Below, one piece after another: positions 7,869-34,389 of a stretch of 64,000 bases of DNA (the first letter of the stretch is position 1; each line of letters starts with the position of its first letter). The position numbers were made by a program, and so were the translations under genes. The stretch spans positions 806,001 through 870,000 of the forward strand of contig NZ_JAAOIR010000001.1 in assembly GCF_011440375.1 (NCBI RefSeq). Reading direction: 5' to 3'. The notes beneath the pieces are model-generated. The model worked only from the letters and a program-made list of their open reading frames with translations. It was not told where the DNA came from and searched no databases. This stretch comes from Halorubellus sp. JP-L1. GTDB taxonomy: Archaea; Halobacteriota; Halobacteria; Halobacteriales; Natrialbaceae.

Positions 7869-8048
7869 ATGAGCGAGTCGCAATCAGCGGAGCAGCGCCG
7901 GTGCGTCTCCTGCGGCATCAACATCGCAGGCACGAACGCCGCGCGCTTCAAGTGTCCCGACTGCGGGCACCTGATCTTCCGATGCGCGAAGTGCCGGAAA
8001 CAGAGCAACCTCTACGAGTGCCCGGACTGCGGGTTCGAGGGCCCCTAA
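7869..8048 (+). CDS. Small four-CxxC zinc-finger protein (HVO_2753-like)
   Basis: 59 residues with four zinc knuckles: CVSCG, CPDCG, CAKC and CPDCG. This fits two zinc sites. The length, motif order and position directly before aEF-1beta match the haloarchaeal family typified by Haloferax HVO_2753, recalled from memory as a micro-protein linked to biofilm and swarming phenotypes. It ends two bases before the next ATG, so the two genes are probably cotranscribed with translation factor expression. The molecular function is not known. Confidence 0.85.
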
Positions 8049-9239: not shown

Positions 9240-10946
9240 ATGACTGAAGCCGCGCCGCCGACGCCCGGGCCGACGGCCCCGGAACCCGACGACGGCGAGG
9301 GGAGCGTTCACGTCCTCGGGACGGCGCACGTCTCGCAAGCGTCCGTCGACGAGGTCGAGCGGACCATCGAGGACCGCCACCCGGACGTCGTCGCCGTCGA
9401 ACTCGACGAGGGCCGGTACCGGCAGTTGCGCGGAGAGACGCCCGACGACCTCGACCCGACGGACCTCCTCTCCGGGAACACCGTCTTCCAGTTCATCGCG
9501 TACTGGATGCTGAGTTACGTCCAGGCGCGACTCGGCGACCGCTTCGACGTGAACCCGGGTGCGGACATGCTCGCGGCCGTCGAGACCGCAGAGGCGAACG
9601 GACTCGGCGTGGCGCTCGTCGACCGCGACATCCAGACGACGATCCAGCGGTTCTGGAAGCGCATGACGGTCTTCGAGAAGATACAGACCGCGAGCGGGCT
9701 CGCGTTCGGCGCGGCCGACCCACGATTGGTCGGTATCACGGTCGGTCTCGTCCTCGGTGTGTTCCTCGCGCCGCTACTCGGGTTCGGGCTCCCGCTCGCG
9801 GGCGTCGTCACAGACGCCGGCCTGCTCTCGATCGCCTCCGGCGGTCTCGTCGCGGGCGTCGTCGGATACGCCGCACTCACCGTGACGGACGACCACTTCG
9901 ACGAGTGGACGAGCCTGCTCGCGGCGACGGCCGTCGGCGTCGGCGTGGGCGCAGCCGTCGCGGTGACGGGCGTCCTCGACCCGTATCTCGCGGGCGTGCT
10001 CGTCAGCCCGATACGGAACCTGCTCGCCGGCGGCTTCGTCGGCATCGGGCTCGGCGTCGCCGTCGGCGTCCTGCTCGGCGTCGCGTTCGACGCGTTCGGC
10101 GTCGGGAGCGACGAGGAGATGGAGGAGTTCGACATCGAGCAGATGACGGACTCAGACGTGGTGACGGTGATGATGGAGGAGTTCCGCCAGTTCAGCCCCG
10201 GCGGTGCGAGCGCGCTCATCGACGAGCGCGACGCGTACATCGCGCACAACCTCGTCGCGCTCCGCGACAAGGGGTACGACGTCGTCGCGGTCGTCGGCGC
10301 CGGCCACCGCGCGGGCATCCAGGCGTACCTCGACGACCCGGCGTCGCTCCCGCCGATGGACGACCTCGTCGGCACCGAGTCCGGGTCGCGGTTCTCGCTC
10401 GGGAAGCTGTTCGGGTACCTGCTCACGCTCGGGTTCGTCGCGTTCTTCGGCCTGCTCGTCCTCGGCGGCGCGAACGACGCCTTCCTCCTCAGGTTGTTCG
10501 CGGCGTGGTTCCTGTTCAACGGCGCGTTCGCGTTCGTCCTGACGAAGCTCGCCGGCGGACACTGGCGGAGCGCGGGCGTCGCGGGCGCGGTCGCGTGGAT
10601 GACGAGCCTCAACCCCCTGCTCGCGCCCGGCTGGTTCGCGGGGTACGTCGAACTGAAGCAGCAGCCAGTGAACGTCTCGGACATCGGGACGCTCAACGAG
10701 ATCCTGAACGACCACGAGTCGCCGCTACGCGACGTGATCGGGCGGATGTTCGACGTGCCGCTGTTCCGCCTGATCATGGTGGTCGCGGCGGCGAACGTCG
10801 GGAGTCTCGTCGCGAGCGTCCTCTTCCCGGTCGTCGTCCTTCCCGCGCTCGCTCCGGAGGTCGGCGGCGTTCAGGGCGTCCTCGACCTGCTCGTGCAGGG
10901 CGTCGAGAACGGTGTCCGCATCGTCCGCGGGGTGGTCGGCGTATGA
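9240..10946 (+). CDS. TraB/PrgY family membrane protein
   Basis: 568 residues from ATG 9240, with TTTATGAGG about 27 bases upstream as TATA element; the start is thus probably leaderless. The N-terminal TraB domain has GTAHVSQASVDEV and VVAVELDEGRY with the conserved His and Glu, and continues at EFRQFSPGG and VVGAGHRAGI after an inserted hydrophobic region (~residues 160-285, several helices). A further set of membrane helices forms the C-terminus. Bacterial relatives (PrgY, TraB) degrade or bind peptide pheromones; archaeal members are uncharacterised. The next gene, an M50-type protease, overlaps by four bases, so the two may act together on membrane peptides. Confidence 0.82.
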   Translation: MTEAAPPTPGPTAPEPDDGEGSVHVLGTAHVSQASVDEVERTIEDRHPDVVAVELDEGRYRQLRGETPDDLDPTDLLSGNTVFQFIAYWMLSYVQARLGDRFDVNPGADMLAAVETAEANGLGVALVDRDIQTTIQRFWKRMTVFEKIQTASGLAFGAADPRLVGITVGLVLGVFLAPLLGFGLPLAGVVTDAGLLSIASGGLVAGVVGYAALTVTDDHFDEWTSLLAATAVGVGVGAAVAVTGVLDPYLAGVLVSPIRNLLAGGFVGIGLGVAVGVLLGVAFDAFGVGSDEEMEEFDIEQMTDSDVVTVMMEEFRQFSPGGASALIDERDAYIAHNLVALRDKGYDVVAVVGAGHRAGIQAYLDDPASLPPMDDLVGTESGSRFSLGKLFGYLLTLGFVAFFGLLVLGGANDAFLLRLFAAWFLFNGAFAFVLTKLAGGHWRSAGVAGAVAWMTSLNPLLAPGWFAGYVELKQQPVNVSDIGTLNEILNDHESPLRDVIGRMFDVPLFRLIMVVAAANVGSLVASVLFPVVVLPALAPEVGGVQGVLDLLVQGVENGVRIVRGVVGV

Positions 10947-27213: not shown

Positions 27214-27462
27214 GTATGAACGGATTGCGTCCGCCAGTAAAAGGGTTGATGCCGCGGCAGGAACTCGACGGTTGGTCGCCCGACAGGAAATCGACGGCCG
27301 TCGACGGGCCTTCGTCGGGGGCGGGCGCACACTACGAGGTCTGGATGCCGGTCGGCGCTCGCGCAGGACTTGCCGGGAAATCACCAGCGGTGCCGGTTTT
27401 TCGAGTAAAAGTTCGTGAGAAAAAGGACTAGGCTTTAGCCGTCTCCCAACTGAGTGCATATC

Positions 27463-28737
27463 ATGCCAGCTGACAACAATCGGTCTGGTGGTGACATGGG
27501 AGCGGACGCGACCGGCGGGACCGTTCGCAGACGAGACGTCTTAGCCGCGGCCGGCGCCGCCGGCGTCGCCAGCGTCTCCGGCTGTCTCTCGAACATCGGC
27601 GGTGGCGCCAGCGGCACCGTCACCTACGGCGTCGTCAGCCCCATCTCGGGGAGTTACTCGTCGCTGGGGCCGTTCCAGCGACACGGCGCCGAACTCGCGA
27701 TCAGTCACCTCCAGGAGGACGACGATTTCGACTACGAGATCGAAGGCGTCTACGGCGACACCGAGACGGGGCCGTCCACGGCGACGCAGGCCGCGTCCCA
27801 GCTCGTCGAGCAAGACGGCGCGGACTTCATCATGGGCGCCATCTCGAGCCAGGTCGGGCTCGCCCTGAACTCGTTCGCCCAGGAGAACGAGGTCATCTAC
27901 AATCCGGGCGCGGCAGCGATCCCGATCACGGGCGAGAGCTGTAACGAGTACGTGTTCCGCTCGGAGACGAACACGGCACAGATCGCCGAGGGCTGTGCGA
28001 ACTGGACGCTCGAGAACCTCGGGTCGAACGTCTGGTTCCACATCGCTGACTACGCGTACGGGCAATCGGTCCTCCGCGAGTGGCGGTCGCGAATGGAGGC
28101 CTCGGACACCGAGTTCAACGAGGTCGGCGTCACGCGCGCCGAACTCGGCGCGCAGAACTACGAGTCCTACATCTCCCAGATCCAGAACTCGGACGCGGAC
28201 GTCCTCGTCGTCGGGTCGACGGGCGGCGACTTCGTTCGCTTCGGGAACCAGGCCGCGAGCGCCGGGCTCGGGGAGGACATCGACATCATCACGACGACCG
28301 CGTCGTTCCAGTCGCTGCGCGCCGGCCTCGGCACCGCCGGGTACGGCATCTACAGCGGCGTCCGGTACAACGCGAGTCTCTCGACGGGCTGGAACGAGCA
28401 GTTCGTCGACGCGTACACGAGCGAGTACCCGGACGACGGCGCCCCCGGGAACTTCGCGCGCGTCGGTTACGACTCCATCCGGATGACCGCAGAAGGCATC
28501 AAGGAAGCCGACTCGACGGACCCGACGGAAGTGAAGGACGCACTCGCCGGCCTGGACACGAACAGCGTCCTCGGCGACAACCGCTACCGCGAGTGCGACC
28601 AGCAAGCGATGAATCCGGTCTGGGTCGGCCAGAACGTCGAACCGGACTCCGGCGAGGTGGCCGACGTCGAACTCATCGAGAAGTTCTCCGGCGAGGACGC
28701 CATCCCGTCGTGTGACTCCACGAACTGCTCGCTATAA
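27463..28737 (+). CDS. livJ: LivJ-type ABC substrate-binding lipoprotein (Tat-exported)
   Basis: 424 residues from ATG 27463 (a GTG at 27454 is in frame). A Tat signal with Arg22-Arg23-Arg24-Asp and a lipobox ending VSGCLS (Cys41) predicts export in folded form and lipid anchoring outside the membrane. The mature part is a periplasmic-binding type I fold (TVTYGVVSPISGSYSSLG; GDTETGPSTATQAASQLV). Family members bind branched-chain amino acids, amides or aromatic acids. CTTTAGCC about 27 bases upstream is the likely TATA element. It overlaps the permease start by one base. Confidence 0.9.
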   Translation: MPADNNRSGGDMGADATGGTVRRRDVLAAAGAAGVASVSGCLSNIGGGASGTVTYGVVSPISGSYSSLGPFQRHGAELAISHLQEDDDFDYEIEGVYGDTETGPSTATQAASQLVEQDGADFIMGAISSQVGLALNSFAQENEVIYNPGAAAIPITGESCNEYVFRSETNTAQIAEGCANWTLENLGSNVWFHIADYAYGQSVLREWRSRMEASDTEFNEVGVTRAELGAQNYESYISQIQNSDADVLVVGSTGGDFVRFGNQAASAGLGEDIDIITTTASFQSLRAGLGTAGYGIYSGVRYNASLSTGWNEQFVDAYTSEYPDDGAPGNFARVGYDSIRMTAEGIKEADSTDPTEVKDALAGLDTNSVLGDNRYRECDQQAMNPVWVGQNVEPDSGEVADVELIEKFSGEDAIPSCDSTNCSL

Positions 28738-30740
28738 TGGTCTCAGGTGGTGCGCTCCTCACGCAGCTCCTGAACGGCCTGAGCGTCGGGATGGTGTACG
28801 TGCTGCTGGCCGCGGGACTGTCCATCATCTTCGGCGTGATGGACGTCATCAACTTCGCGCACGGCGAGTTCTACGCGCTCGGCGCGTACCTCGCGGTCGG
28901 AATCGTCGCGGCGCTCGCCGGCGTCACCGGCGGGTTCTGGATCGCGCTCGTCGTCGCGCCACTGATCGTCGGCGTCCTCGGCGGGCTCGTCGAGCGCGTC
29001 ACCATCCGACCGCTCTACGGCCGGAATCCACTCTACCACATCCTGTTGACGTTCGGGCTGGTGCTCGTCATCGCCGACGGCATCGAACTCATCTGGGGCA
29101 CCCAGCCCCAGACGTTCGCGAAGCCGGCGCTGCTCGCCGGCCCGATCACGATCGCGGGATTCCAGTACTCGCTGTACAACTACTTCGTCATTGTCGCCGG
29201 CGGCGTCCTCGCGCTCGCGACGTGGCTCGCGCTGACGGAGACGCGCGTCGGCATCATCATCCGCGGCGGGGCGCAGGACCGCGGGATGGTGCGCGCGCTC
29301 GGCATCGACATCGACCGATACTACACGCTCGTGTTCGCGTTCGGGTGCGTGCTCGCCGCAGTCGCGGGCATCATCCTCGGCGCGAAGCAGGAGGTCGCGC
29401 TCGGGATGGGGAACTCGATCATCATCCCGGCGTTCGTCGTCGTCGTCCTCGGCGGCCTCGGGAGCTTCCGGGGCGCGGTCGTCGGCGGCCTCACCATCGG
29501 GATCGTCCAGACGTTCACGCAGACGTACGTCAACGAACTCACGGGCGTCGTCGTCTACCTCCTCATGGTCGGCATCCTCCTCGCCAAACCCCAGGGGCTG
29601 TTCGGGAACCCCGAGTGGCAGAATCACGGCGGCGAGGAGGGCGACCTGCTGACCGGCGGCGGCGGTGGCATCCTCGACGACTCGACGCGGCGGTACCTCG
29701 CCATCGGGCTCGTGGGCGTGCTCGCGCTCGTCCCGCTCGGTATCGGCGTCGTCTACTCGAGTTACTTCGCGAACGCGCTCGTCATCAACATCCTCATCTG
29801 GGCGCTGTTCGCGCTCAGCCTCGACTTCGTCATGGGGTACGCGGGCCTCGTGTCGCTCGGGCACGTCCTGTTCTACGGCGTCGGCGCGTACGCGACCGTG
29901 ATGGTGACGCTGTACCTCACGCCCGTGTTCTGGGTGGGGCTGCTCGTCGGCATCGTGCTCGCGCTCGCCATCGCGTGGTTCGTCGGCTACCTCTCCATCA
30001 GGGTCTCCGGCGTCTACTTCGCGATGATCACGCTCGGGTTCGCGCAGCTCGCGTACAACGCCGTCACGAAGTTCGACGCCACGGGGGGGAGCGACGGTCT
30101 CTACACGGGCTACGACCCCACGTACGGCCTCGGCATCGGTCAGGTCGGTCGCGTCGACTTGCTCGGCGACATCCAGCTGTTCTACTACGTCGTGCTCGCA
30201 CTCGTCGTCGTCTCCTACCTGGTCGCGCGCCAGATGATGCGCGCGCCGTTCGGGAGCGTCCTGCAGGCGATCCGCGAATCCGAGGACCGAGCGGAGTTCC
30301 TCGGGTACGACACGGTCGCGTACAAGCGCCGCGCGTTCATGATCTCCGGCGGCCTCGCCGGGCTCGCGGGCGGCCTCGCGACGATCAACAGCTTCGGCGT
30401 CGGCCCGAGCTTCCTGTTCTGGCTGAAGTCCGGCGAAGTCATCGTGATGACGCTACTGGGCGGCATGGGGACGCTGTACGGGCCGATGGTCGGCGCCGGC
30501 GCGTTCCTCGGCCTGAAGGAGATACTGCTCACGCTCGGCGAGGGGACGCCCGGATTGCTCGGCGAGTTCCTCTCGCAGTGGCAGGGGATCCTCGGCCTCA
30601 TCTTCGTCGTGTTCGTCATCTACGTTCCGGAGGGCCTCGTGTCGCTGCCGGCGACGCTCCGCGCTCGCTTCGGCGCGGGCGGCGGTGGCAGCGGCGGAGA
30701 ACCCACCGCGGAGGCGACCGACACGGAGGTGAGCGACTGA
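28737..30740 (+). CDS. livHM: Fused LivH-LivM ABC permease
   Basis: 667 residues, the sum of two permeases. Residues ~1-285 are LivH-like (GLSVGMVYVLLAAGLSIIFG, NFAHGEFYALGAYLA). A Gly-rich linker follows (~290-315, EEGDLLTGGGGG). Residues ~320-650 are LivM-like (SLDFVMGYAGLVSLGHVLFY; ISGGLAGLAGGLATI). In most species these are separate genes, so one chain here provides both halves of the channel. The reading frame is open through the junction. It is followed by a mini-ORF and livG. Confidence 0.92.
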   Translation: MVSGGALLTQLLNGLSVGMVYVLLAAGLSIIFGVMDVINFAHGEFYALGAYLAVGIVAALAGVTGGFWIALVVAPLIVGVLGGLVERVTIRPLYGRNPLYHILLTFGLVLVIADGIELIWGTQPQTFAKPALLAGPITIAGFQYSLYNYFVIVAGGVLALATWLALTETRVGIIIRGGAQDRGMVRALGIDIDRYYTLVFAFGCVLAAVAGIILGAKQEVALGMGNSIIIPAFVVVVLGGLGSFRGAVVGGLTIGIVQTFTQTYVNELTGVVVYLLMVGILLAKPQGLFGNPEWQNHGGEEGDLLTGGGGGILDDSTRRYLAIGLVGVLALVPLGIGVVYSSYFANALVINILIWALFALSLDFVMGYAGLVSLGHVLFYGVGAYATVMVTLYLTPVFWVGLLVGIVLALAIAWFVGYLSIRVSGVYFAMITLGFAQLAYNAVTKFDATGGSDGLYTGYDPTYGLGIGQVGRVDLLGDIQLFYYVVLALVVVSYLVARQMMRAPFGSVLQAIRESEDRAEFLGYDTVAYKRRAFMISGGLAGLAGGLATINSFGVGPSFLFWLKSGEVIVMTLLGGMGTLYGPMVGAGAFLGLKEILLTLGEGTPGLLGEFLSQWQGILGLIFVVFVIYVPEGLVSLPATLRARFGAGGGGSGGEPTAEATDTEVSD

Positions 30741-30804
30741 TGCGCAACAGCGGACTCGCGCGACCGCTCGCCGCGGTCGCGCCACCGGAGGTGAGCGACT
30801 GATG
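30724..30804. repeat. Duplicated ribosome-binding/stop-start sequence before livG
   Basis: CGGAGGTGAGCGACTGATG occurs at 30724-30742 and 30786-30804, an exact 19-base match with period 62. Each copy carries GGAGGTGA, the codons for VSD, a stop and an overlapping ATG. The first ends livHM; the second leads into livG. Confidence 0.85.
30740..30802 (+). CDS. Bridging mini-ORF between livHM and livG
   Basis: A 20-codon frame (MRNSGLARPLAAVAPPEVSD) starts on an ATG overlapping the livHM stop and ends on a TGA overlapping the livG ATG, so ribosomes could pass from one gene to the next without release. GGAGGTGA sits 5-6 bases before its start and again before livG. Its end duplicates the last residues of LivHM. 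It may be a coupling device, or a by-product of a 62-base duplication; a peptide function is not supported. Confidence 0.35.
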   Translation: MRNSGLARPLAAVAPPEVSD

Positions 30805-31560
30805 GCGCTCCTCGAGACGCACGGACTGACGCGGCGGTTCGACGAACTGGTCGCGGTCGACCACGTCGACCTCGCGGTCGAGGCCGGCGAGTTCCGGAGC
30901 GTCATCGGCCCGAACGGCGCCGGGAAGACGACGCTGTTCAACTGCATCACGGGCGCGCTCCGCGCCTCGGAGGGCGAGGTCGTCTTCGACGGCGAGGACG
31001 TCACGGACCTCCCGAGCTACGAGCGCGTCCGCCGCGGCATCGGGCGGTCGTTCCAGATCACGAACGTCTTCGGCGGCCTCACGGCCCTGGAGAACGTCCG
31101 GTTGGCGGCGCAGTCGATCCCGAGCCGCGAGATGAGTCAGGGCGCGCAGCTGTTCCGCCCGAAGACCGAGTTCGACGACGTGAACGCGCACGCCCAGGAG
31201 GTCCTCGAACAGGTCGGGCTCGCGGACGTCGCCGAGGAGGAGGCGTCGACGCTCGCGTACGGCGACCAGCGTCGCCTCGAGATCGGGCTCGTGCTCGCGA
31301 CCGACCCGGAGGTGGTGCTGCTCGACGAGCCGACCGCGGGGATGGGTAGCGAGGAGACGGCGGCGACGATGGCGCTCGTCGACGACGTCCTCGCCGAACA
31401 GACCCTGTTGCTGATCGAGCACGACATCGACCTCGTGATGGACGTCTCCGACCGCATCACGGTCCTGAACCGCGGAAGCATCGTCAGGACGGGGACGCCC
31501 GAGGAGGTCGCGAACGACGAGGACGTGCAGGCCGCGTACCTCGGAGGGCACGGCCAATGA
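30802..31560 (+). CDS. livG: LivG-type ABC transporter ATPase
   Basis: 252 residues. Walker A GPNGAGKTTL, the LivG-type signature TLAYGDQRRLEIGL instead of the classic LSGGQ, Walker B VVLLDEPTAG, and the switch His in IEHDIDLVMD are all present. With LivF it powers the fused LivHM permease on the cytoplasmic face. Start ATG follows GGAGGTGA by five to six bases. Confidence 0.93.
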   Translation: MALLETHGLTRRFDELVAVDHVDLAVEAGEFRSVIGPNGAGKTTLFNCITGALRASEGEVVFDGEDVTDLPSYERVRRGIGRSFQITNVFGGLTALENVRLAAQSIPSREMSQGAQLFRPKTEFDDVNAHAQEVLEQVGLADVAEEEASTLAYGDQRRLEIGLVLATDPEVVLLDEPTAGMGSEETAATMALVDDVLAEQTLLLIEHDIDLVMDVSDRITVLNRGSIVRTGTPEEVANDEDVQAAYLGGHGQ

Positions 31561-31637
31561 CCGCGACCGCAGACGCAGATGCGACCGCAGACGCAGACGC
31601 GACCGCGACCGCGGCCATCGGAGGTGACCACTCGTGA
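31557..31637 (+). CDS. Bridging mini-ORF between livG and livF
   Basis: A 26-codon frame begins at an ATG overlapping the livG stop (ATGA) and ends at TGA overlapping the livF GTG (GTGA). The product is a repetitive Thr-Ala-Asp chain made from copies of GACCGCAGACGCAG. As in the previous liv gap, the frame exactly fills the space with overlaps at both ends. A role in translational coupling is inferred. Confidence 0.35.
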   Translation: MTATADADATADADATATAAIGGDHS

Positions 31638-32353
31638 GCATGCTCGAACTCGACGATCTCGTCTCGGGGTACGGCCAGACGCGCGTCCTCGACGGCATCG
31701 ACGCGCACGTCGACGAGGGCGAGATCGTCGCGCTCGTCGGCCGGAACGGCGTCGGGAAGACGACGACGCTCCGTACGATCCTCGGGTCGGTCGAACCCTG
31801 GAGCGGGAGCGTCCACTATCGCGGCGACGACGTCACCGGGATCGGTCCCGTGGAGACGACCCGGCGTGGCATCGGACTCGTCCCAGAGGAACGCCGCATC
31901 TTCCCGGGACTCACCGTCGAGGAGAACCTCGAACTCGCGAGCTACGGCGGCGCCGACACCGACAACCGCCGCGACCTCGAGTGGGTGTTCGACACGTTCG
32001 AGAACCTCGACGAACGGCGCCACAACCGCGGGAGCGACCTCTCGGGCGGCGAACAGCAGATGCTCGCGATCGCTCGCGCGCTCGTCGCCGGATCGGACCT
32101 CCTGATGCTCGACGAACCGACCGAGGGGCTCGCGCCGCTCATCGTCGACCGCGTCCAGGAAGTCGTCCGGGAGGTGAGCGACGCCGGCGTCACCGTCCTG
32201 CTCGTCGAGCAGAACGTCCGCGTCGCGCTCGACCTCGCCGACCGCGTGTACGTCCTCGCGCACGGCCAGATCGTCCACGAGGCCACGCCCGAGGACTTGC
32301 GTGCCGACACCGAGACCGTCGAACGCTACCTCGGCGTGTCGTTCGCGGACTGA
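31634..32353 (+). CDS. livF: LivF-type ABC transporter ATPase
   Basis: 239 residues from GTG 31634, chosen because GGAGGTGA ends six bases before it; an ATG two codons later is possible. Walker A GRNGVGKTTT, signature SDLSGGEQQMLAIARAL, Walker B LLMLDEPTEG and the switch His replaced in VEQNVRVAL, as usual for LivF. It is the second ATPase of the branched-chain/aromatic-type transporter and ends the operon. Confidence 0.93.
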   Translation: MSMLELDDLVSGYGQTRVLDGIDAHVDEGEIVALVGRNGVGKTTTLRTILGSVEPWSGSVHYRGDDVTGIGPVETTRRGIGLVPEERRIFPGLTVEENLELASYGGADTDNRRDLEWVFDTFENLDERRHNRGSDLSGGEQQMLAIARALVAGSDLLMLDEPTEGLAPLIVDRVQEVVREVSDAGVTVLLVEQNVRVALDLADRVYVLAHGQIVHEATPEDLRADTETVERYLGVSFAD

Positions 32354-33657: not shown

Positions 33658-34389
33658 ATGTATAAGCACGTCGCCTGTCTGGTTCGCAAGGACGACATGA
33701 CCCACGAGGAGTTCATGGACTACTGGCAGCACGAGCACAGTCCGCTCGCGAAGGACATCGAAGGCGTCGTCCGCTACCACACCGTCTACCCCACCGACCC
33801 GGAGAACGCCGAGTTCGACGGGCTCGCGGAACTTTACTTCGAGACGCTCGACGACCTCCACGAGGCCCTCGGCAGCGAGGGCAGTCGCGACTACGACCCC
33901 ACCCGCGAGGTCGCCGCGGCCGCGCGCGAGGACGTGAACAACTTCCTCGCCGTGAACGAGCGCCCGCGCTTCATCGGCGAGGAGAAGGTCTGGAAGGACG
34001 AAGTCGACGGCGACACCGACGGTCTCTACAAGCACTCCGCGTTCCTCGTCCGCAAGGAGGGAATGAGCCACGACGAGTTCCGCGAGTACTGGGAGGACAA
34101 CCACAGTCCGCTCGCGAAGGACATCGAGGGCGTCGTTCGCTACCAGACCGTCTACCCCACCGACCCGGAGAACGCCGAGTTCGACGGCGTCGCCGAGCTC
34201 TACTTCGAGACGCTCGACGACCTCCACGAGGCCCTCGGCAGCGAAGGCAGTCGCGACTACGACCCCACCCGCGAGGTCGCCGCGGCCGCGCGCGAGGACG
34301 TGAACAACTTCCTCGCCGTGAACGAGCGCCCGCGCTTCATCGGCGAGGAGGTCGTCCAGAAGGACGAGGTCGACGCCGAGGGGTACTGA
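33658..34389 (+). CDS. Tandem EthD-domain protein
   Basis: 243 residues made of two copies of a ~122-residue EthD/dimeric alpha-beta-barrel domain. Each copy has YKHxAxLVRKxxMxHxEFxxYW, HSPLAKDIEGVVRYxTVYPTDP and the tail NNFLAVNERPRFIGEE. EthD proteins are linked to ether and aromatic-compound degradation and usually form homodimers, so this chain may be a single-chain dimer. The copies are nearly identical in DNA. It overlaps the HD gene by one base. The substrate is unknown. Confidence 0.82.
   Translation: MYKHVACLVRKDDMTHEEFMDYWQHEHSPLAKDIEGVVRYHTVYPTDPENAEFDGLAELYFETLDDLHEALGSEGSRDYDPTREVAAAAREDVNNFLAVNERPRFIGEEKVWKDEVDGDTDGLYKHSAFLVRKEGMSHDEFREYWEDNHSPLAKDIEGVVRYQTVYPTDPENAEFDGVAELYFETLDDLHEALGSEGSRDYDPTREVAAAAREDVNNFLAVNERPRFIGEEVVQKDEVDAEGY
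33741..34350 (+). repeat. Near-identical duplicated domain DNA in the EthD gene
   Basis: Bases 33741-33984 match 34107-34350 with about nine differences by eye over 244 bases, period 366. The first ~80 bases of each copy are clearly more diverged. This is the mark of a recent duplication or of ongoing gene conversion. Confidence 0.9.

Follow-up and report, generated by a model that had tools for sequence, protein, structure and literature searches.

Mini-ORFs overlapping both neighbours fill two gaps of a Halorubellus liv operon and may relay translational coupling

Introduction

Coupling of neighbouring genes by termination and re-initiation (TeRe) has been studied in Haloferax volcanii and Escherichia coli (PMC6728339, PMC10666635; these and the other reports are cited here from excerpts). 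In those excerpts, TeRe concerns two adjacent genes, and coupled pairs often, but not necessarily, have a Shine–Dalgarno (SD) motif ahead of the start at which re-initiation takes place. Here we consider a liv operon of Halorubellus sp. JP-L1, in which a gene for a substrate-binding protein (SBP) is followed by a fused livHM, livG and livF. The operon lies on the forward strand of a 64,000-nt stretch of contig NZ_JAAOIR010000001.1 (positions 806,001–870,000), which we call the window and to which coordinates refer unless a locus is named. It shares with the TeRe systems stop/start overlaps of −4 or −1 nt, SD motifs near the overlaps, genes for the subunits of a complex and a haloarchaeal host, and it differs from them in that a mini-open reading frame (mini-ORF) is interposed between livHM and livG, and another between livG and livF, which would make for two coupling steps per gap.

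The closest known kind is found in mycobacteria, where mycobacterial interspersed repetitive units (MIRUs) contain ORFs to which the Halorubellus inserts are alike in geometry (PMC12548453). MIRUs are described there as repetitive and apparently mobile, whereas no second full-length copy of the Halorubellus inserts was found in the genome, and one of the junctions looks like a local duplication. The same report treats coupled upstream ORFs that deliver ribosomes; as would be the case here, such an ORF acts by being translated and not through its product, but the Halorubellus frames sit between genes of an operon and would receive their ribosomes from the upstream gene. Small intergenic ORFs have also been catalogued in Enterobacteriaceae (PMC11188072), where, according to the excerpt, the start of ∼13% is no more than 10 nt from the upstream stop; among those that point the same way as the downstream gene, ∼13% terminate no more than 10 nt from the start of that gene, and ∼37% of these overlap it by 1–4 nt. 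The enterobacterial ORFs are regarded as candidate microproteins under selection, in contrast to the Halorubellus mini-ORFs, which lack peptide conservation. In the titles and abstract openings among the literature matches listed, there is no description of archaeal operon genes linked by bridging frames. The geometry is thus already known from MIRUs; what appears to be new is a proposed lineage-specific relay between subunit genes.

On balance we incline to the view that the two mini-ORFs are relay frames that keep TeRe coupling going after DNA has been inserted at a coupled junction, a reading that joins an observed anatomy and history to a function that we infer. Both the translation of the mini-ORFs and the selection that would keep the coupling belong to the inferred part.

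Two gaps filled by mini-ORFs

The chain of overlaps through the operon is unbroken: TAATG (28735–28739) joins the SBP gene to livHM, TGATG leads into mini-ORF 1 and TGATG again into livG, ATGA leads into mini-ORF 2 and GTGA into livF, so that all four mini-ORF junctions are −4/−1 overlaps of the TeRe type. Upstream of the re-initiation starts there are SD motifs, namely GGAGGTGA at 30725, 30787 and 31620 and GGAGGG before mini-ORF 2; in the whole window GGAGGTGA occurs 10 times, against 2.4 expected from shuffles. The original prediction, that frames of 20 and 26 codons fill both gaps with overlaps at each end and that a sequence motif sits just before each next start, was correct. Its description of the frames as beginning with an ATGA-type overlap on the upstream stop fits mini-ORF 2; mini-ORF 1 begins at TGATG, which is a −1 and not a −4 overlap.

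Mini-ORF 1 (30740–30802; 20 codons, MRNSGLARPLAAVAPPEVSD) overlaps each neighbour by a single base, its ATG lying on the livHM stop and its TGA on the livG ATG. The SD motif GGAGGTGA at 30787–30794 is 7 nt before that ATG. What might be called a coupling cassette of 19 nt, comprising the SD motif, codons for EVSD and TGATG, is present at the end of livHM (30724–30742) and again at the start of livG (30786–30804). The two copies are identical, as had been predicted, and a pair of matches turned up in none of 100 shuffles, even when 3 mismatches were allowed, for a pattern that had itself been chosen from the sequence. The gap is 61–62 nt long in the window; in a sister species, which is the only other Halorubellus genome compared and whose fused LivHM is 89–90% identical, it measures 35 nt. 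There, an 11-codon frame bridges the gap (positions 8001–8036 of locus L031). The right-hand ∼34 nt of the two gaps align, and the window has 27 nt extra. Kept in both species are the start on the livHM stop, the SD motif and the stop on the livG start. The peptides are less alike: they agree at 4 of 10 aligned residues (AAVAPPEVSD versus TAIANSEVLN), and their codon differences, judged by eye, are spread over all three positions; livHM, livG and livF differ between the species mostly at third positions, and 23–28% of their 4-fold sites are different.

Mini-ORF 2 (31557–31637; 26 codons, MTATADADATADADATATAAIGGDHS) fills a gap of 73–74 nt, its ATGA lying on the livG stop and its terminal GTGA on the livF GTG, with GGAGGTGA at 31620–31627, 6 nt before that GTG. 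The predicted short repeats turn out to be an 18-nt tandem unit in two copies (31563–31598) that are identical at 17 of 18 positions (31563–31580 and 31581–31598). In the sister species, livG and livF overlap directly (ATGA), and there is no bridging frame.

The junctions in relatives

How unusual are these gaps? Fused LivHM has a match at an E value of 1e-150 or better in 52 of 125 genomes of the family. The loci that we compared came from two genome collections, and some may be of the same species; 80 fused-livHM loci were reduced to 77 by removing L002 (the same as L031) and the near-duplicates L038 and L052. The livG start codon is at −1, −4 or −8 of the livHM stop in 74 of the 77, the exceptions being the window, the sister species and L058, which as read has a long overlap and not a gap. 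Similarly, livF starts at the livG stop in 74 of the 77; here the exceptions are the window, L036 (+3) and L044 (start at −14), whose livF has one base fewer near its start than that of its near-duplicate L052. Because 74 of 77 loci are coupled at each junction, direct coupling is likely to be the ancestral state at both. Extra space, where it exists, is largely in frame: at 59 of the 74 coupled livG starts, the upstream stop is separated from the conserved part by at least 24 nt of in-frame sequence, and an in-frame extension of at least 24 nt is present at 12 of the 74 coupled livF starts, which suggests that lineages normally lengthen junction space in frame. Among the 77 loci, out-of-frame gaps occur only in Halorubellus, at both junctions in the window and at gap 1 in the sister species; all three are 2 mod 3 in length, and all three are bridged. 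Judged against these relatives, each mini-ORF is an inserted ORF that overlaps its neighbours' stop and start, as in the MIRU type. Related operons that had gaps with no conserved frame had been proposed as a refutation of the original prediction; nearly all of the related operons compared turn out to have no gap, so that this comparison is inapplicable as worded.

The evidence on which the relay reading chiefly leans comes from orthologous junctions in the two Halorubellus species. From 42 junction pairs (followed bridges, flanks and chance overlap of samples) we obtained 29 distinct orthologous junctions, of which 13 are gap/gap, 1 far/gap, 5 bridged/direct, 2 bridged/bridged, 4 direct/direct, 3 short/short and 1 direct/short. 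In other words, a direct or bridged ortholog was found for all 7 bridged gaps and for 0 of 14 unbridged gaps, and on this basis it is the bridged gaps of Halorubellus, and not the unbridged ones, that seem to behave like coupled junctions. For four of the bridges that were followed (L171, L178 and L223 of the window's genome, L179 of the sister), the other species has a direct overlap, and a fifth, L163, is bridged in both species (15 and 6 codons) and is a direct overlap in another genus.

Locus L178 belongs to another liv operon of the same genome, where a 14-codon frame, MTADASRISREVAA, bridges the junction (9498–9539 of that locus). The junction is direct in the 11 other loci compared, i.e. 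the sister and 10 family loci, with 4 weaker matches left out. Family-wide, there are 137 clusters of orthologous junctions, and 7 of them have both direct and bridged members. In Haloarchaeobius, the gaps that separate livF from the gene after it at two loci (61 and 64 nt; L040 at 5971, L043 at 9344) are bridged by frames with different peptides; the other 11 members of that cluster are unbridged gaps.

Origin of the inserts

Some of the bridged gaps may carry traces of local duplication. When the 18 nt before the left stop are compared with the 18 nt before the right stop, the mean likeness is 7.5/18 in bridged gaps versus 5.6/18 in re-paired junctions, and at least 12 positions agree in 4 of 28 bridged gaps versus 1.2% of re-paired junctions. 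These four are gap 1, its ortholog in the sister (so that two of the four are orthologous), L171 (tails PGESA and AGESS) and L179; at L223 the start side is repeated too (MTTER and MTAER). For gap 1, we think that a cassette of SD motif, stop and start was probably duplicated at livHM/livG, the 19-nt cassette being the only part that is alike; two copies lying 2 mod 3 apart would form a bridge at once. Tandem duplication of a full unit was rejected for gap 1, as the core of the insert is unlike the 150 nt upstream beyond the 18-nt junction (p 0.25, either species); compared with the downstream side, the core gives p values of 0.03 and 0.05. The L179 insert resembles its upstream side (p 0.002), and the inserts of gap 2 and L171 show no resemblance to theirs (p 0.23 and 0.24). 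The two junctions of mini-ORF 2 are alike at 10 of 18 positions, mostly in the SD motif, and this frame looks like a product of repeat growth from its tandem units. At L171, the sister's upstream gene continues to the overlap, and a shortened upstream gene would therefore be another route to a bridge.

We also considered a dispersed, MIRU-like repeat and rejected it, as no further full-length copy of either insert was found in the genome; in contrast to the multi-copy MIRUs, the only full-length match is at the locus itself. The next-best matches in the searches with the inserts were of 27 bp (36.5 bits; 40 of 148 first-look candidates scored) and 43 bp (39.2 bits; 40 of 199).

A relay for re-initiating ribosomes

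The sequence of events that we envisage begins with an ancestral operon in which stop and start codons overlapped directly, and ribosomes ending one subunit gene would have re-initiated on the next. DNA would then have been added at livHM/livG in the Halorubellus lineage, probably through duplication of the SD–stop–start cassette, and repeat-rich DNA at livG/livF in the window's species. Each insert is 2 mod 3 in length and has an open frame running from the old stop to the new start, so that ribosomes could travel from the livHM stop through mini-ORF 1, livG and mini-ORF 2 to livF, terminating and re-initiating each time. The peptides made on the way would be irrelevant.

Reporter data suggest that a bridge would have work to do. 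In H. volcanii, according to the excerpt, a gap of 13–14 nt cuts re-initiation to about half, and one of 22–23 nt abolishes it or nearly so (PMC10666635); gaps of 61 and 73 nt would therefore be expected to uncouple the genes. The final 15 nt of the upstream gene are enough for re-initiation in E. coli (PMC10666635), and a frame of 11 to 26 codons should on that account be long enough to recouple them.

Alternative explanations

The main rival is that the frames are neutral leftovers: the insertions split the genes apart, livG and livF are each translated de novo from the SD motif before them, and the frames are idle by-products of duplication and of GC-rich DNA, where stops of the form [A/G]TGA abound. 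We regard this as a serious possibility, if not the one that we would choose, and several results weigh on its side and against a relay. To begin with, perfect GGAGGTGA motifs precede both livG and livF, which could accordingly start de novo, and duplication of a cassette would immediately produce a bridge if the unit were 2 mod 3 long. How often do bridges arise by chance? We surveyed same-strand pairs with no downstream start near the upstream stop and a gap of 13–300 nt in the window's genome, the sister and family members, and asked about the association of a left start with a right stop in gaps of 2 mod 3, the sole class that −4/−1 overlaps can bridge. A first look gave 18 gaps with both, 28 with the left only, 26 with the right only and 69 with neither (p = 0.18). 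In an enlarged sample (101 stretches, 2.06 Mb, window included) the same counts were 28, 38, 38 and 125 (p = 0.006, or p = 0.019 without the window and L190). A second sample of 20 fresh stretches plus contigs, with 169 rows reduced to 114 by similarity and L031 still among them, showed no association either for gaps of 13–90 nt (2, 3, 6 and 17; p = 0.6) or for gaps of 91–300 nt (1, 11, 3 and 28; p = 1), and its left-start rate was 5/28 in frame 2 versus 8/41 in frame 1. Pooling the samples without the window and L190 left the gaps of 13–90 nt borderline (p = 0.041 and 0.064). We have therefore given up a family-wide enrichment of bridges, which was not significant at first, significant after enlargement and not replicated.

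The survey also indicates how cheap the geometry is. Since every [A/G]TGA provides a start, a stop that falls on the downstream start comes easily in DNA like this, and 38 of 163 frame-2 gaps without a left start have this right-hand overlap. Bridged gaps, counting all frames, make up 28 of 641 in the enlarged sample. In this genome (704 kb sampled), 17 of 236 gapped pairs, ∼7%, are bridged, and two bridges in one operon are for this reason less improbable than they appear. Bridging frames, then, are not rare and geometry alone proves little; it is the comparative evidence that carries weight.

That evidence has its own weak points. Coupled junctions do lose coupling across genera: 8 of the 137 clusters have both direct and unbridged members, among them L162 (at 5738; 33 nt unbridged, 5 of 7 members direct), L062–L064, L291 and the SBP/livHM junction of this very operon, whose cluster of 77 members has 4 that are direct (the window, L031 and L190, these being one locus, and L046), 44 that are short and 29 with a gap. 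The preference for bridges is seen inside Halorubellus only, in a small picked set. All seven bridged pairs entered that set because they were bridged, five of the seven were picked by hand from 11 short (≤90 nt) bridged gaps outside the operon, and a length of ≤90 nt is shared by both species in only 2 of the 14 unbridged controls and seen in at least one species in 9. Taken by itself, gap 1 says little for a relay because a bridge like it would survive neutrally at 25% divergence with a probability of ∼0.3, or ∼0.09 if a single change of length, whatever its size, is counted, both figures being rough and computed after the fact.

What neutral leftovers explain poorly is the contrast of 7/7 with 0/14, together with the fact that both species have a bridge at gap 1 and at L163 despite the difference in length. 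The original prediction had read the two bridges as a sign of selection for unbroken ribosome passage. This holds up insofar as the gaps opened at junctions that are direct in nearly all relatives compared, both gaps are bridged, and gap 1 is bridged in the sister too although its length and most of its peptide differ; it is weaker as an argument from coincidence or from a family-wide excess, and across genera coupled junctions also become unbridged gaps.

A base or assembly error at gap 2 is quite improbable. One base more or less would turn the stretch into an in-frame N-terminal extension of LivF, as in some relatives, and the in-frame extensions at coupled livF and livG starts counted above show that such things exist; moreover, the stretch is repetitive and has been seen in one genome only. 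Against this, the frame ends exactly on a GTG that has a well-spaced SD motif, gap 1 is present in two assemblies, and the sister has no extension at livF.

Least probable of all, and scarcely to be entertained, is that the mini-ORFs encode functional small peptides, for while both frames are open and start on an upstream stop with an SD-like motif before the start, neither has an NCBIfam match, the 20- and 11-residue products at gap 1 are not conserved and their codon differences are not concentrated at third positions, and at gap 2 the sister lacks the frame that in the window is made of short repeats.

Wider implications

Might relay mini-ORFs be a recurrent repair route that selection maintains in Halorubellus, and perhaps in other haloarchaea such as Haloarchaeobius (L040/L043)? 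Small local duplications or shortened upstream genes would open coupled junctions, and translated bridges, whatever their peptide, would persist where coupling matters. We put this forward tentatively and think it rather unlikely to hold as stated. If it did, each genome would have dozens of double-overlap relays that are likely to have been missed or mistaken for small-protein genes. Translation of the two frames would mean that the space between operon genes can grow while the genes stay coupled, and that a frame may be retained for passage and not for its product. Additionally, the mini-ORFs lend themselves to testing whether ribosomes in archaea indeed fail to scan after termination, as is claimed, and they are a caution against annotating frames of this sort as small-protein genes.

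Operon context and further observations

The SBP gene (27454–28737, forward strand) ends in a TAA that shares one base with the livHM ATG; its start is uncertain (GTG at 27454, or 27496), and its NCBIfam matches, to urea and branched-chain ABC substrate-binding proteins, are below cut-off. The fused livH–livM permease gene (28737–30740, forward; 667 aa) has NCBIfam matches to UrtB/LivH in its N half and to UrtC/LivM in its C half, both below the curated cut-offs. The two ATPase genes, also on the forward strand, are livG (30802–31560; 252 aa) and livF (31634–32353; 239 aa), the latter with a GTG start and an in-frame ATG at 31640. A terminator scan of the operon gave 1 site against 1.5 expected, and a promoter scan, which models the bacterial type, gave 0 sites. 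The mRNA structure across the gaps is not out of the ordinary (z −0.17 and −0.40).

Some observations concern the relatives. A plasmid of Halorussus aquaticus has two near-identical copies of the operon (L044 and L052), and in L052 the livG match is split between residues 106 and 116. Haloferax massiliensis (NZ_CSTE01000007.1; L095 and L096) has two livHM-like matches of the same length, inverted, ∼6 kb apart. In a plasmid search, the best records were from other haloarchaea. Finally, in the window, the protein encoded at 33658–34389 consists of two near-identical halves, an internal tandem duplication in which GSEGSRDYDPTREVAAAAREDVNNFLAVNERPRFIGEE is present twice, and its gene shares one base (34389) with the next.

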